This document shows positions 7,413-37,266 of a stretch of 46,250 nucleotides of DNA, one piece after another. Each line of letters opens with the position of its first letter. The first letter of the stretch is position 1. Below the pieces are notes generated by a model. That model saw only the letters and a program-made list of their open reading frames with translations, ran no database searches and was not told the origin of the DNA. The stretch is from Chloroflexota bacterium (lineage in GTDB: Bacteria; Chloroflexota; Anaerolineae; Ardenticatenales; JAADHH01). The DNA is taken from positions 1 through 46,250 of the forward strand of contig JAADHH010000021.1 in assembly GCA_013151955.1 (NCBI GenBank), in the 5' to 3' direction. The position numbers and the translations under genes were made by a program.

Positions 7413-8102
7413 ATGGACACGAACTTGAAACAACAGGCCGCCGAAGAAGCGGTGACACGCTTTGTGCGTGACCGGATGACTTTGGGCTTGGGCACGGGAA
7501 GCACAGTCTATTTTGCCCTGCGCAAGTTGGGCGAGGAACTGGCAGCGGGCCGGCTGAAACAGATCGCGGGCGTGCCGACATCGGTAGACACGGAACGCCA
7601 GGCCGCGACGTTTGGCATTCCGCTGACGAATTTGCGGGATCACATCCCCCTGGACGTAACGATTGACGGGGCTGACGAAGTAGACGATGACCTCAACCTG
7701 ATCAAAGGACTGGGCGGTGCGCTATTGCGCGAGAAACTTGTGGCCGCTTCATCCCAAAAATTGGTCATCATCGTCGACGAGAGCAAGCACGTTACCCGCC
7801 TGGGCAGTCACGTGCCGCTCCCCGTGGAAGTGGCTCAATTTGCCTGGCAGGTACAGGTGCCCTTCCTGAAATCTCTGGGGGCACACGCGCAACTGCGCAT
7901 GTCCACCGCAACAGAACCGTACGTGACCGATAACGGCAATTTCATTTTGGATGCCCGCTTCCCTGGCGGCATCCCGGATGTGCGACGGGTGGCGGAAGCC
8001 CTGGCCCATCGTCCCGGCGTGGTCGAACATGGCCTATTCCTGGGCATGGCCCATGCGGTCGTCCTGGCCACTGTGGGCGGGGTGCAGATCATGACGATTT
8101 GA
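7413..8102 (+). CDS. rpiA: Ribose-5-phosphate isomerase A
   Basis: Converts ribose 5-phosphate and ribulose 5-phosphate into each other. The 229-residue product has the RpiA hallmarks: GLGTGSTV near the N-terminus, the TIDGADEVD catalytic loop, and KGLGGALLREK. I chose ATG 7413, which sits after GGGGAGA; an in-frame TTG at 7401 would add four residues but overlaps the ribosome site. It ends the tkt-SDR-rpiA unit. Its stop codon lies inside the -35 region of the next promoter. Confidence 0.96.
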   Translation: MDTNLKQQAAEEAVTRFVRDRMTLGLGTGSTVYFALRKLGEELAAGRLKQIAGVPTSVDTERQAATFGIPLTNLRDHIPLDVTIDGADEVDDDLNLIKGLGGALLREKLVAASSQKLVIIVDESKHVTRLGSHVPLPVEVAQFAWQVQVPFLKSLGAHAQLRMSTATEPYVTDNGNFILDARFPGGIPDVRRVAEALAHRPGVVEHGLFLGMAHAVVLATVGGVQIMTI

Positions 8103-8128
8103 CTCCACCAACCATTCTGTGGTACAAT
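8099..8128 (+). promoter_or_regulatory. Promoter of the fluoride-switch operon
   Basis: TTGACT (8099-8104), an 18-nt spacer, TACAAT (8123-8128). It overlaps the rpiA stop and places transcription start about 8135, right at the first base of the aptamer. This agrees with a leader RNA that starts with the riboswitch. Confidence 0.75.
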
Positions 8129-8134
8129 GACATA

Positions 8135-8185
8135 CGGCGATGAGGCTCGCCCAACCGTCAGCCTGATGACTGATAGCCTCTACCA
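8135..8185 (+). promoter_or_regulatory. Fluoride riboswitch (crcB motif)
   Basis: The sequence matches the crcB fluoride aptamer in order and spacing. Stem GGCG (8136-8139) with CGCC (8148-8151) encloses the GATGAGGCT loop. A linker CAACC precedes a hairpin GTCA (8157-8160)/TGAC (8167-8170), then TGATA and GCCTCTACC. Loop bases 8142-8147 (GAGGCT) can form a 6-bp pseudoknot with 8175-8180 (AGCCTC). The layout is nearly the same as the crystallised Thermotoga petrophila aptamer as I recall it, with matching GGCGATGAGG, CGCCCAA and GCCTCTAC blocks. The pseudoknot uses the same bases as the 5' side of the terminator that follows, so fluoride binding should prevent termination and switch the genes on. 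Confidence 0.92.
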
Positions 8186-8216
8186 TGTCGCGTGCGCCCT
8201 GGTAGAGGCTTTTTTT
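8175..8216 (+). terminator. Riboswitch-controlled intrinsic terminator
   Basis: An 11-bp perfect stem (8175-8185 with 8200-8210), a 14-nt loop and a seven-T tract sit inside the leader, before the coding start. The 5' arm overlaps the aptamer pseudoknot, which is the classic arrangement of an ON switch. Confidence 0.93.
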
Positions 8217-8252
8217 GTTCAAGAGAAAGCAAAAGAGAGGATTCGACACCCG

Positions 8253-9056
8253 ATGGGTCTGATCAAGTTAGACCTGAAACTCGCCTTTCAGGAAGAGGGC
8301 TGCCCGGTCTGTCGCCTGCGCCACCAAAGTGAACAGCGTTACATCTACAACTTGCTGTGGGAGAACGTAACCGACGGCGGCATACGCGCTATGCTTGTGC
8401 GCTCGCTCGGGTTCTGTCACGCGCATTCCTGGCAACTGCAAGAAACCGAGCAAAAGCAGTGGAACGACGGTCTGGGCACCGGCATCATCTACGAAGACCT
8501 GACCGAACGCGCGTTGGCCGGCCTCAAAGCCTATACGCAGGAAGTGAGTCGCTCACCCGCACGCAACATGGCCCCCCGGTGGTGGAAAAGGCTGCGCCGC
8601 CTTTGGCCCAGCCAGCCCCACGGCGCGCACGATTCTGGCCCCGCCAACAACGACTTTCTGCCGGCGAGCCTCGTGCCGCGCGGCCCGTGCCGCGTGTGCG
8701 AACTGGGCGACAGGACAGAAGCGACCTACCTGAGCTGGCTCCTGCGGTCCCTTTCCGACGACGATTTCCAAGAAGCCTACCGCACTTCGGACGGTCTCTG
8801 TTTGCCCCATCTGCGTCAGGCCCTCGCCCTGGCCCGCGACGAGAATCCGGACACCCTGCCCACCTTGACGGAGATTGCCGAGGAGAAGACCCGCCGGCTG
8901 GCCCACGCACTGGGCGAATACGTTCAAACACAACTGGCAATTCCAAAACGAGACGGTATACCCCGAAGAACAATCTTCGTGGCACCGTGCCGTGGCCTTC
9001 TTTGCCGGCGAGAAGAGACAGAGAAGTCCCGGAAGTTCCAGAAGTTCGACTTCTGA
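8253..9056 (+). CDS. DUF6062-type zinc-binding-like protein, C-terminus frameshifted
   Basis: Function unknown. ATG 8253 is chosen because upstream in-frame codons lie inside the riboswitch and terminator; AGAGAGGA precedes it. The protein has two similar modules, each with Cys-x2-Cys followed later by Cys-x2-His: CPVC with CHAH in the first, and CRVC with CLPH in the second. This resembles a duplicated metal-binding unit and the DUF6062 family. After LGEYV the reading frame departs from the family. The next frame encodes KHNWQFQNE and SSWHRAVAFFAGEK, which match the expected C-terminus, and would end at 9102. A 2-base deletion (or a +1 shift) near 8922-8927 explains this. As written, the last residues are read from the wrong frame and from a palindromic repeat. 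The gene is directly under the fluoride switch. Confidence 0.8.
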   Translation: MGLIKLDLKLAFQEEGCPVCRLRHQSEQRYIYNLLWENVTDGGIRAMLVRSLGFCHAHSWQLQETEQKQWNDGLGTGIIYEDLTERALAGLKAYTQEVSRSPARNMAPRWWKRLRRLWPSQPHGAHDSGPANNDFLPASLVPRGPCRVCELGDRTEATYLSWLLRSLSDDDFQEAYRTSDGLCLPHLRQALALARDENPDTLPTLTEIAEEKTRRLAHALGEYVQTQLAIPKRDGIPRRTIFVAPCRGLLCRREETEKSRKFQKFDF

Positions 9057-9072
9057 GGGAAGTCGAACTTCT
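9040..9072. repeat. Palindromic repeat core, copy 1
   Basis: AGAAGTTCGACTT (9040-9052) and its exact complement AAGTCGAACTTCT (9060-9072) around a 7-nt loop. It lies at the 3' end of the DUF6062 gene and supplies that gene's stop codon in one frame. It could act as an mRNA end structure. Related cores occur at 9632, 15097, 24281 and 37232. Confidence 0.85.
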
Positions 9073-9091
9073 AAGACTGAAGAGCAGGAGA

Positions 9092-9688
9092 ATGGATCAT
9101 AACCTGACGCCTTGCGAATTCCGCCAGCGCCGCCCCCTGGCCGGTGGCGGCGAAGAGATCGTCTGCCTGGCGGCCCAATCTGCCCAACTGGCCATTGTGG
9201 GCCAGGAAGAAGGCAACCATCTGGCCGCGGTCTGCGGCTCCTGCCCCATCCCCGGCGCCATCGCCGGCAATCCTGCCGCTTGCCTATTCCTCCGGCCCCT
9301 CCGCTTCATCGCCGACCCGGAACGAGCGCCGGCCTACTTCACCTGTCGCTGGTATTACGCCATCCGCAGCGGGGAGCAGCCAACGGACATTCGCTGGTGC
9401 CAGGGGTGCCGCGATTGGTTTCCGCGCCCACCGCTCGAGCTCATCCAGGGCTACGAAGAAGAGAACGAAAGAATTCGTCGCTTCATGCTCACCGGCGACG
9501 ATGGCCGGGCTCGTTTTCGCTGGGCCACCTCCGAGGAGGTCGCACCCCACGCCTTCACCGGCTGGCGACGGATCCGTTTCGTTTTGCAGCGATGGGTCAT
9601 GCTGCTCCGGCTGCGCTGGCAGCAGAGACAGAGAAGATCGACCTCTGGGAGAAGTCGATCTTCTGACCCTTCTGACCTCAACGCATGA
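9092..9688 (+). CDS. Eight-cysteine hypothetical protein under fluoride switch
   Basis: Unrecognised 198-residue protein starting at ATG 9092 with an AGCAGGAG ribosome site, 35 bp after the previous stop. It has eight cysteines in its first 106 residues: C8, C25, C48-x2-C51 followed by PIPGAI, C64 after NP, C85 and C103-x2-C106. The same order and key words (CxxCPxP, NPxC, final C-C pair) recur in the 102-residue protein at 42013-42321, so the two appear related. The arrangement suggests a metal or Fe-S site but proves none. The C-terminal tail is Arg/Ser-rich and is encoded by a palindromic repeat. It is the second and last gene of the fluoride-switch unit and overlaps the convergent gene by 11 bp. 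Confidence 0.75.
   Translation: MDHNLTPCEFRQRRPLAGGGEEIVCLAAQSAQLAIVGQEEGNHLAAVCGSCPIPGAIAGNPAACLFLRPLRFIADPERAPAYFTCRWYYAIRSGEQPTDIRWCQGCRDWFPRPPLELIQGYEEENERIRRFMLTGDDGRARFRWATSEEVAPHAFTGWRRIRFVLQRWVMLLRLRWQQRQRRSTSGRSRSSDPSDLNA
9632..9664. repeat. Palindromic repeat core, copy 2
   Basis: Arms 9632-9646 and 9650-9664 are complementary with one mismatch around GGG. It is preceded by the same CAGAGACAGAGAAG stretch seen before copy 1 and encodes the C-terminal tail of the eight-Cys protein. Confidence 0.8.
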
Positions 9689-11417
9689 TGAGAGGCAGGT
9701 AAATCCGCGGCAAAAAGACCATGACGCCAAAGTCGGCATTGGTCGGCATGACGGCCCCGTCCCGATTGAAGATGGCCCACTTGTGCTCACTGTTTCCGTA
9801 GCGCACGCCAATCCGATGGCCGCTGTGCGTGCTCCCTGGAGCCGCGTTCCAGTTCTGCGTAACCAGCAGGAGGGCGAACGGGTTGTTGTTCGTCAACGGG
9901 TTGTCGATCCAGGTTGCGCTCCCGGCGATGTTCCCAGACGTTGCCCTGTGCACAAAGGCCGTAGTGCTCGTCGAGCGCACCATGACATTGAACCCCACGT
10001 CTGCCGGCATGGTGGTAAAGTCCTCGTTGTGAATGGCCCACTTGTTGGAGGCATTGTAGACCGCCCCGATGGAGTGTTTGTTATACTTGGGGAGGATCCC
10101 GCTCGGGTCGAAGTTCTGGGTAGCGAACAGGATAGCGTCTGATTTTCCGTTGGTAAGGGGATGGTCAATGGTCGCCGTAGAACCGGAGATGCCACCCGAT
10201 CGGGAGATGTGGGTAAAGACCGCCGCGTCCACCGACGGGATCACCACATTGAATGCCGCTCCCGCAGGCATGGTAGCCAGGTCTTCATTGAAGATACCCC
10301 ATTTGTGCGCACTTCCATTATACAAGACGCCAAGCGGATGGTTGTTTGGGGTGCCACCAACCCCACCCGGATTCCAGTTCTGGGTGACCAACACGATGGC
10401 GTGGGGGTTGTTGTTGGTGAGAGGGTTGTCTATGAAGGTCACGCTCGCCGATGAATTCGCGGCCGTAGCGAAGTGGAAAAAGGCGGTCGTGCCGGTGGTA
10501 GGCACCAGCACGTTGAAGGCCGCACCTTCCGGCATGTCAGTGTGGTCCTTATTGTAGACGGCCCATTGTCGGTACAAAACATCATACCGCACCCCGATGG
10601 GATGGGCATTGGTACCGGCGCCGCTCGTCTGGGTGATGAGGACAATGGCGTTCGGTTTCCCATTCGTCAGCGGACTGTCGATGTAGCTCCAGCCCACGGT
10701 GTTGGTGTTTCCCGCCGTGGCCGTATGCACAAAGACATCAGGACCGTGGGATAGCACCAGTACGTTGAAGGAGGCGCCTTCCGGCATGTCGGCGAGATCC
10801 TGGTTCAAAATGAACCAACTACCACCGAAATATCCCACCTGGACGGGATGGTTGTTGTAGACGCCAAGCCCCCCACCCGGGTTCCAGTTCTGGGTGACCA
10901 ACAAGGTCGCGTTGGGGTTGTTGTTCGTAAGGGGATTGTTTATGGTGGTGACGTTCCCATAGGTGTTCCCGGCACTGGCCGTATGTACAAAGGCACCGGC
11001 GGATGCGTCGGGGATCAGCACGTTGAAGTTCACCCCTTTGGGCATGGTAGCAAGGGACTGATTGAAGATGGCCCACTTGCTGCCGTTATAATAGACGCCG
11101 AGGAGATGGCTATTGACAGTGCCACCAGACCCGCCTGGGTCCGCATTCTGGGTGACGAAAACGATGGCGTTGGGGTTGTTGTTGGTAAGGGGGTGATCAA
11201 TGACGGTCGCGTCGCCGCCCCTGTTCGCGTCCGTGCTGATGTGGACGAAACGGGCTCCCGGCACACGGGTTGTCGCGCTGAAGAGATGCTGAGTCTCGAC
11301 GCTGCCGGCCGGTGCGGCGCTCCGCGCGCTGGCGACGGGCAACGTTACCAGAAAAGCGACCAAAGCCACAGCTAGTCCTCGTACGATCATCCTATTGAAT
11401 AACGTCCTCTCGGTCAT
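9678..11417 (-). CDS. Secreted protein with six DUF7452-like repeats and LP-type C-terminal tag
   Basis: Exported protein of unknown function, 579 residues. ATG at 11417 follows a GGAAGGAGA ribosome site; further upstream ATGs lack one. The N-terminus (FNRMIVRGLAVALVAFLVT, then an Ala-rich stretch) is a signal peptide. The mature part is six tandem repeats of roughly 85-90 residues, each with FVH-type start, a DxPLTNNNPxA block, a VTQNWNPGG-like block, a HPxGVxY strand, KWAIFNxDLATMP and FNVLVP. This resembles the DUF7452 repeat as I recall it. The protein ends in IYLPLIMR, a short hydrophobic Leu-Pro tag also seen in modified form on the neighbouring BNR protein. It probably forms a surface or secreted beta-rich array. 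Confidence 0.8.
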   Translation of the reverse strand: MTERTLFNRMIVRGLAVALVAFLVTLPVASARSAAPAGSVETQHLFSATTRVPGARFVHISTDANRGGDATVIDHPLTNNNPNAIVFVTQNADPGGSGGTVNSHLLGVYYNGSKWAIFNQSLATMPKGVNFNVLIPDASAGAFVHTASAGNTYGNVTTINNPLTNNNPNATLLVTQNWNPGGGLGVYNNHPVQVGYFGGSWFILNQDLADMPEGASFNVLVLSHGPDVFVHTATAGNTNTVGWSYIDSPLTNGKPNAIVLITQTSGAGTNAHPIGVRYDVLYRQWAVYNKDHTDMPEGAAFNVLVPTTGTTAFFHFATAANSSASVTFIDNPLTNNNPHAIVLVTQNWNPGGVGGTPNNHPLGVLYNGSAHKWGIFNEDLATMPAGAAFNVVIPSVDAAVFTHISRSGGISGSTATIDHPLTNGKSDAILFATQNFDPSGILPKYNKHSIGAVYNASNKWAIHNEDFTTMPADVGFNVMVRSTSTTAFVHRATSGNIAGSATWIDNPLTNNNPFALLLVTQNWNAAPGSTHSGHRIGVRYGNSEHKWAIFNRDGAVMPTNADFGVMVFLPRIYLPLIMR

Positions 11418-11745
11418 CTCGATTCTCCTTCCGGTCATTCGTGCGTATCGTGATGGTTTCATTTCCGCGCTCTACCAATAAAATCAGGTTCCAACCCTGC
11501 CCCCGAGTGTACACGCCCCCCGCCATCCGCCATCCGCCGTACGCCAGTATGCCAGGATAGATCGTAGCTCTGCCCCCGGCCAGCGTTGATAAGCAGCAAG
11601 CAAGGAGAGCCTGGCGAATGAATTCGCGGCTACAGTTGCAAAACCGACCGCCGCCGGTTCGATCTTCAGTCGGTGGAGGCCGACATTGCGGTGGTAGGCG
11701 TGGGTTCAACCACTAGCCACGGAGGCGTGAGTAGTAACCCTCCAC
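11418..11745. other. Intergenic region between two secreted-protein genes
   Basis: No gene seen. It holds the ribosome site of the downstream minus-strand gene, a hairpin GCGAAT-GA-ATTCGC followed by GGCTAC at 11614-11632, and a second weak palindrome (ACCGAC...GTCGGT, around 11640-11690) that could be a poor terminator for the BNR gene. A T-loop-like GGTTCGATC near 11657 is not part of a tRNA. Confidence 0.45.
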
Positions 11746-15066: not shown

Positions 15067-15165
15067 CAGTCGTCAGACTCTAGCCACGCGACGCTTAGAA
15101 GTTCAACTTCTCGGAGAAGTTGAACTTCTGGGCCTACTGCGTAATCTGTCGCTCGACGCTCCACG
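15067..15165 (+). repeat. 99-bp palindromic repeat, copy A
   Basis: The core is two 15-nt blocks, AGAAGTTCAACTTCT (15097-15111) and AGAAGTTGAACTTCT (15115-15129), separated by CGG. Each block is almost self-complementary and they also complement each other. The flanks (15067-15096 and 15130-15165) match, with about six mismatches in all, a reverse-oriented copy at 24245-24343. Confidence 0.88.
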
Positions 15166-24244: not shown

Positions 24245-24343
24245 CGTGGAGCGTCGAGCGTCGGATTACGCATTGGGCCGAGAAGTTCAACTTCTCCGAG
24301 AAGTTGAACTTCTAAGCGTCGCGTGACTAGAGTCTGACGACTG
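24245..24343 (-). repeat. 99-bp palindromic repeat, copy B
   Basis: Same length as copy A at 15067-15165 but inverted. The 33-nt core (24281-24313) is identical and the flanks differ at about six positions. Its end overlaps the first heptamer unit of array E. Confidence 0.88.
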
Positions 24344-37231: not shown

Positions 37232-37266
37232 TAGAAGTTCAACTTCTGGCAGAAGTTGAACTTCTA
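37232..37266. repeat. Palindromic repeat core, copy 5
   Basis: Perfect 16-bp inverted repeat (TAGAAGTTCAACTTCT, 37232-37247, and its complement at 37251-37266) around GGC. It lacks the 99-bp flanks. It lies between divergent promoters. Confidence 0.88.

Follow-up and report, generated by a model that had tools for sequence, protein, structure and literature searches.

A predicted fluoride riboswitch upstream of a DUF6062 gene in an Anaerolineae bacterium, and the recurrence of this pairing in the class

Locus organization and riboswitch leader

The stretch of 46,250 nucleotides analyzed here (the window; positions 1 to 46,250 of contig JAADHH010000021.1, assembly GCA_013151955.1) is from the draft genome of a Chloroflexota bacterium of the class Anaerolineae, and contains, between rpiA (Rib_5-P_isom_A, frame end at 8102) and a gene of the protein family DUF6062, a leader with a predicted fluoride (crcB) riboswitch; a small second gene follows (Table 1). 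We interpret the leader as a fluoride riboswitch of the transcriptional ON type and DUF6062 as a family that belongs recurrently to the fluoride regulon of Anaerolineae and that also occurs with the switch in a few other groups; from sequence comparison, we assign to this interpretation a probability of roughly 0.8.

An earlier note on this DNA had proposed a crcB aptamer at this position, and a covariance search with the Rfam model RF01734 identified it above the gathering score, as the sole Rfam match above cut-off across the 46-kb window; the reading as a chance match was rejected on account of this score. One RF01734 switch was found in the genome of the window (3.02 Mb draft, 86% complete; contig C7), which is a lower bound, since 150 of 410 first-look candidates were scored.

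The aptamer was aligned with 32 others of the class that score at least 39.5 bits (alignment A1), five of which have a DUF6062 gene at a distance of no more than 600 bp. Across these 33 sequences, 97.4% of the cells in the structure are paired and both-sided changes are seen in 9 of the 14 pairs; P1 and the 6-bp pseudoknot are as the note had described them. The covariation score is 0.499, compared with 0.218 in shuffled alignments (0 of 500 shuffles as high), with the reservation that the 33 aptamers were picked through the Rfam search, and that their choice and alignment are hence biased towards RF01734. A class model built from this alignment (R1) scores the window at 55.7 bits, the window being one of its 33 training rows. 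The aptamer claim is based on Rfam and covariation and not on folding energy, because the aptamer folded alone and pseudoknot-free is unremarkable (z -1.55; equalled by 15 of 200 shuffles) and does not show P1.

The intrinsic terminator, also proposed in the note, has a folding energy of -20.1 kcal/mol (z -4.2) and is present in the minimum-free-energy structure of the entire leader (z -3.0); it is missing from a consensus terminator scan because its loop exceeds the limit of the scan. Bases 8175-8180 are common to the pseudoknot strand and to the 5' arm of the terminator, so that aptamer and terminator are mutually exclusive, and as far as can be read from the sequence, the architecture of the leader is that of an ON switch. 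With fluoride present (as Mg-F complex), aptamer and pseudoknot would hold 8175-8180 and the terminator would be blocked, which would allow transcription of DUF6062 and the small second gene; with fluoride absent, the same bases would pair into the terminator instead. We infer both fluoride binding and read-through at this leader.

Table 1. Coordinates of the predicted features at the riboswitch locus of the window
Feature	Position	Strand	Evidence or remark
Fluoride (crcB) riboswitch aptamer, RF01734	8127-8189	+	38.1 bits (gathering score 34), E 4.1e-7
P1 stem	8136-8139 with 8148-8151	+	100% of cells paired; both-sided changes in 2 of 4 pairs (33 aptamers)
Second short stem of the aptamer	8157-8160 with 8167-8170	+	Class alignment of 33 sequences
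Pseudoknot	8142-8147 with 8175-8180	+	99.5% of cells paired; both-sided changes in 4 of 6 pairs (33 aptamers)
Intrinsic terminator	8175-8216 (arms 8175-8185/8200-8210, 11 bp; U7 8210-8216)	+	Read directly; inverted repeat I2
DUF6062 gene, open frame, 267 aa	8253-9056	+	PF19538 54.9 bits (cut-off 27); own profile 207 bits
Open reading frame in another frame, with the missing DUF6062 C-terminal motif	8875-9102 (motif 8926-9024)	+	Profile positions 205-236, 24.6 bits
Second gene, 198 aa, eight Cys (by reading)	9092-9688	+	Overlaps the open reading frame 8875-9102 by 11 bp
Sigma-70-like promoter, TTGACT-18-TACAAT	8099-8128	+	Consensus scan; one found, 0.3 expected in 8050-9750
Protein of 594 aa, six DUF7452 repeats	9678-11462	-	Convergent with the DUF6062 operon

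Recurrence of the riboswitch-DUF6062 pairing

The RF01734 model was searched over 396 genomes of the class Anaerolineae, independently of DUF6062; 12 candidates were scored per genome under strict filters, and the resulting counts are lower bounds. Matches at E <=0.001 were found in 70 of the genomes (above cut-off in 47) and comprise 82 riboswitch rows, 54 of them at the gathering score. DUF6062 was detected in 157 of the 396 genomes, and switch and DUF6062 together in 45, a co-occurrence with an odds ratio of 3.4 (p 6e-6; uncorrected for kinship). For 81 riboswitch rows, i.e. all except the window's own, a same-strand DUF6062 gene is located downstream within 300 bp in 13 cases, within 1.5 kb in 19 and within 3.2 kb in 23; the gathering score is reached by 16 of these 23 linked switches.

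A survey of other DUF6062 genes for the same leader, on which the earlier note had staked its proposal, covered 121 unique genes from 109 of the 157 genomes, among the matches listed, and found an R1 switch within 300 bp upstream of 26 genes, within 1.5 kb of 35 and within 5 kb of 41. The proposal was thus not refuted by this survey. Furthermore, 32 leaders (the 26 with a switch within 300 bp, and six chosen from named loci) were scanned automatically, without a shuffle control, and in 26 a terminator 5' arm overlaps the pseudoknot strand; an arm and T run were also seen by eye in three further leaders (L011, L182, L288). No such arm and T run was found at the switch hit in the leaders of L092, L187 and L157. 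As a separate observation, the L092 locus (G065:C58) contains four R1 riboswitch matches in about 9.4 kb, on both strands.

Outside this set, a scan of named genomes, many of them the same genomes as in the class search, was evaluated for the best 80 of 169 DUF6062 loci; 74 are labelled as of Chloroflexota type and six are not (L219, L226, L264, L278, L280, L287). An R1 switch (E <=0.005) lies within 1.5 kb upstream of DUF6062 in 20 of these 80 loci (hand count), and of 14 R1-positive loci submitted to Rfam, eight were confirmed at its own threshold. Rfam-confirmed switches with DUF6062 next to them occur outside Chloroflexota in metagenome-assembled genomes labelled Omnitrophota (L278, 55.7 bits) and Aerophobetes (L287, 50.4 bits), the phyla being the labels of these assemblies, in which binning errors are possible. 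A phylum-wide search yielded 29 DUF6062 loci, 23 of these from other Chloroflexota classes, with an upstream switch in three of the 23 (L296, 58.6 bits; L302, 30.8 bits; L318, 24.9 bits).

Genes downstream of the class riboswitches

Same-strand gene runs were tallied after 77 class riboswitches of at least 24 bits (the 81 minus four rows below this score), with one or two representatives per operon family as queries, taken from these same operons; the tally is thus not a full census. The families comprise DUF6062 (23 runs), MutS-V (21), CrcB (20), DUF190/CBS (19), zinc-ribbon/HEAT (14), major facilitator superfamily (MFS; 11), a small unnamed protein (c9; 11), Na+/H+ exchanger (7), Usp/CBS (7), pyrophosphatase (6), dynamin-like GTPase (5) and enolase (4), and nine of the 77 runs are without any recognised family. 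After the switches of this class, DUF6062 and CrcB can fairly be called equally common; DUF6062 is level with CrcB and not ahead, because by a hand count of family codes the 23 DUF6062 runs fall into 10 and the 20 CrcB runs into 11, and because six of the DUF6062 runs are from one genus (g14).

Runs that include DUF6062 also contain enolase (G386), CrcB (G254), paired MutS-like genes (G070, G048) or pyrophosphatase (G016), each of which is among the fluoride-riboswitch cargo given in PMC11139923 and PMC2864571. In G254 (L128 1571-2812), riboswitch, DUF6062 and crcB are directly consecutive; this switch scores 28.3 bits by Rfam, i.e. under the cut-off, and 40.9 bits by R1. The observation in the earlier note that no exporter follows is thus valid for the window, whose riboswitch operon contains no CrcB or CLC-F exporter gene, and does not extend to DUF6062 operons elsewhere. 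Among 80 named DUF6062 loci, the largest neighbour cluster is found in six loci only, so that no constant partner outside the fluoride context emerged for DUF6062.

Fluoride resistance might also be provided by other genes of these operons (MFS transporter, pyrophosphatase, CrcB, MutS-like), with DUF6062 as an accessory passenger. This would fit the run of G016, which carries four other genes (see below), and the order of genes in the 77 runs, where the first recognised family is MutS-V in 16, DUF6062 in 13 and CrcB in nine; however, of the 13 runs led by DUF6062, four (G038, G056, G311, G135) contain no other recognised family, and in the window just the rare second gene comes after it. We regard the passenger explanation as improbable.

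Two further families were observed in these runs. A protein with zinc-ribbon and HEAT repeats is recurrent (e.g. L101, L115, L116, L104, L108), and 15 of the 19 zinc-ribbon/HEAT genes listed, some rows being duplicates, share locus and strand with DUF6062. The dynamin-like GTPase genes lie 3' of fluoride riboswitches at loci L071, L076, L070, L092 and L098.

The DUF6062 protein and the copy in the window

Pfam lists DUF6062 (PF19538) as a family of unknown function. Eight residues are invariant in an alignment of 88 sequences (A4) and form two CxxC...CxxH sets (two Cys3His), all eight of which are held by the protein of the window (C17, C20, C55, H58, C146, C149, C183 and H186); judged from the ligand set, they are probably zinc sites. 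The halves of the protein are homologous (hhalign 97.5%, E 5e-12), and DUF6062 is therefore a duplication. An AlphaFold2 model of the L211 protein, to which the window protein is 33% identical, was computed with the A4 alignment and has eleven helices and no strands (mean pLDDT 93.9, pTM 0.87); the protein would thus be an all-helical, duplicated unit whose two Cys3His sets may bind two metals. In the C-terminal motif of the family, K, E, E and R are near-invariant, and this motif is a candidate for a working surface.

A Foldseek search with the model gave a best PDB chain at E 0.52 and no viral model of the BFVD at E <=0.001, so that the predicted fold is without a known match within these two libraries. 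Sequence searches with Pfam and NCBIfam over the 88 members produced, besides DUF6062, just weak matches, mostly to zinc-finger-like or uncharacterised families, and no match to a transporter in Pfam. A search of PDB sequences with the A4 profile had the ribosomal protein bS18 as best candidate (E 0.12), and this kinship was not accepted.

In the window, the family match of the DUF6062 product stops at about residue 226, and its last approximately 40 residues are foreign to DUF6062. The C-terminal motif (EFIRKxDYRFxxE...E) is not in the frame of the gene and was found only in another frame (Table 1); this copy is therefore frame-broken, at about 8925-8932, just before the motif. The two-gene cargo of the earlier note, a double zinc-knuckle-like DUF6062 protein and an eight-Cys protein, stands with this correction: the DUF6062 frame lacks its C-terminal motif, and the second gene has its start at 9092. 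The position of the frame change ahead of a conserved motif would be expected if the locus had decayed, with an intact switch before a DUF6062 pseudogene; against such decay, the motif past the break is still recognisable, and its open reading frame overlaps the next gene by a few base pairs, as would fit a draft genome with an error of sequencing or assembly, or a change of very recent date. Decay appears unlikely to us, and the break may be an error of the draft assembly or a recent change.

The product of the second gene has no Pfam or NCBIfam match. Matches at E <=0.001 are confined to five of 392 class genomes, namely its own, G297 and three weak ones, and strong matches to two (its own and G297; 41% identity, E 6.6e-31), and in G297 the homologue lies directly 3' of a DUF6062 gene. 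The proposal of two new fluoride-response proteins hence fared differently for its two parts: DUF6062 is well supported by its frequency after class switches and by the terminator overlap in its leaders, and the claim for the eight-Cys protein is weak, with one strong homologue besides itself, beside a DUF6062 gene that has no switch in the sequence covered.

Distribution on the tree and weighing of interpretations

The DUF6062 family was placed on a tree of 129 rows, calculated by a quick search with long-branch warnings and with the labels of eight outside rows set by hand. The DUF6062 protein of the window falls within a clade of 19 rows (SH-aLRT 99); a switch is present within 1.5 kb of 13 of these, and five further rows (G070, two G021 genes, G048:C19 and one G254:C441 gene) are located 1.5-3.2 kb downstream of a switch. 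The switch label changes 19 times on the tree, 12 of these changes being forced by well-supported branches, compared with 33 times in shuffles (0 of 500 as low), and the link between switch and DUF6062 has therefore been gained or lost repeatedly.

These data also bear on the possibility that DUF6062 functions generally in stress or metal handling, e.g. as a zinc/redox adaptor, and that fluoride operons recruited it several times without its being specific for fluoride. Such a role would account for the 91 of 129 tree rows without a switch within 1.5 kb and for the at least 12 forced label changes, and the invariant Cys3His sets fit a structural metal; yet the label is clustered on the tree (near-copies contribute to this), 18 of the 19 members of the window clade have a switch at a distance of up to 3.2 kb, and DUF6062 equals CrcB in frequency after the class switches. 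We consider this possible, though as a tentative alternative.

Several observations weigh against DUF6062 as a recurrent fluoride-regulon member and against the window as its example. Below the Rfam gathering score are seven of the 23 DUF6062-linked class switches and six of the 14 R1-positive named loci (L285, L211, L236, L272, L223, L221); no switch was found within 5 kb upstream of 80 of the 121 DUF6062 genes, many loci being covered for only about 1.5 kb, or at 20 of the 23 loci of other Chloroflexota classes. Whole sub-lineages of the 129-row tree are without a switch, six of the 23 DUF6062 runs come from the one genus mentioned above, the frame of the window's own DUF6062 gene is broken, and no switch was found in the approximately 1.4 kb covered upstream of the G297 pair. 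We maintain the interpretation given at the outset, and as the pairing recurs in many related bacteria, the DUF6062 family has apparently been overlooked as a component of the bacterial response to fluoride.

Exporters and possible roles of DUF6062

CrcB was not found in the draft genome of the window; two CLC genes are located on contig C66, i.e. on another contig than the switch. In 33 genomes with a switch within 5 kb upstream of DUF6062, CrcB was found by profile search in seven and not in the other 26. A CLC gene is present in 11 of these 26, and 15 are also without CLC; 11 of the 15 genomes are at least 90% complete. Such absences come from a profile search in mostly draft genomes, which may miss divergent exporters, and are weaker evidence than presence. 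For example, the genome G016 (one contig, 98% complete) has neither CrcB nor CLC among the genes found, and its single riboswitch found (35.0 bits; L108 1576-5672) is followed by genes for DUF6062, a small protein, a zinc-ribbon/HEAT protein, an MFS protein and a pyrophosphatase. Among these products, the MFS protein might be a new fluoride transporter.

As a tentative proposal, DUF6062 might be an adaptor or scaffold that limits damage within the cell, acting with the zinc-ribbon/HEAT protein and with fluoride-sensitive phosphoryl-transfer enzymes, and not an exporter. A more far-reaching suggestion, which we find rather doubtful, is that DUF6062 and its zinc-ribbon/HEAT and MFS neighbours may form the centre of a system for fluoride tolerance that operates without either known exporter family, and that DUF6062, as a two-site metalloprotein of new fold, would limit fluoride damage or help the MFS protein to export fluoride.

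Further features of the window

The promoter-like sequence upstream of the leader (Table 1) would put the transcription start at about the first base of P1; -10-like sequences were also seen by eye, without a tally, 5' of several other riboswitch leaders. A palindromic element (near AGAAGTTCAACTTCT-CGG-AGAAGTTGAACTTCT) occurs in the window at 15097-15129, 24281-24313 and 37233-37265, and it matches the genome of the window 67 times on the forward strand and 66 times, mostly at the same places, on the reverse strand, compared with none for a reversed control. Repeats similar to this element are located at about 9032-9072 and 9632-9672, and the frames of the DUF6062 region and of the second gene take their tails from these two inverted repeats.

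Comparison with known fluoride systems

Bacterial fluoride defence, according to passages of two papers (PMC11139923, PMC2864571), centres on two exporter families, and other named riboswitch cargo has known roles. The cargo named there comprises, for the crcB motif, mutS, K+ or Cl- transport and formate hydrogen lyase (PMC2864571), and for fluoride riboswitches, exporters, Na+/H+ antiporters, pyrophosphatase, HAD, enolase and formate hydrogen lyase (PMC11139923). DUF6062 was named nowhere in a full-text search of 5.39 million open papers, the gene tables of the original fluoride-switch paper, which might hold unnamed entries, being outside this search.

With DUF6062, a family without assigned function would join this inventory; its predicted structure found no solved-fold match in the search run, it is one of the commonest riboswitch cargoes in this large class of environmental bacteria, and some of the Anaerolineae genomes with the pairing show neither exporter family. 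If confirmed, this would make a branch of fluoride tolerance that does not depend on exporters directly testable; it also bears on the engineering of microbes that break C-F bonds, where the released fluoride is an obstacle, as described in PMC11139923.

Compared with PF19538, the window protein matches the family with both Cys3His sets, and differs in that the C-terminal motif is out of frame. Operons for CrcB/Fluc exporters share the riboswitch class, and in G254 even a single switch, with DUF6062, whereas DUF6062 is predicted to be all-helical with metal-type sites and matches no Pfam transporter, and most of the pairing genomes yielded no CrcB (26 of 33, see above). Compared with other RF01734 riboswitches, the leader of the window scores above cut-off and has a terminator that overlaps the aptamer, as in many crcB RNAs (in the portion seen of PMC2864571), but its cargo is DUF6062 and an unnamed protein, and DUF6062 is not among the cargo named in the portions seen of PMC2864571 and PMC11139923. 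The riboswitch itself is ordinary; the novelty lies in the family that forms its cargo, in how frequent this family is, and in its occurrence in genomes in which no known exporters were found.

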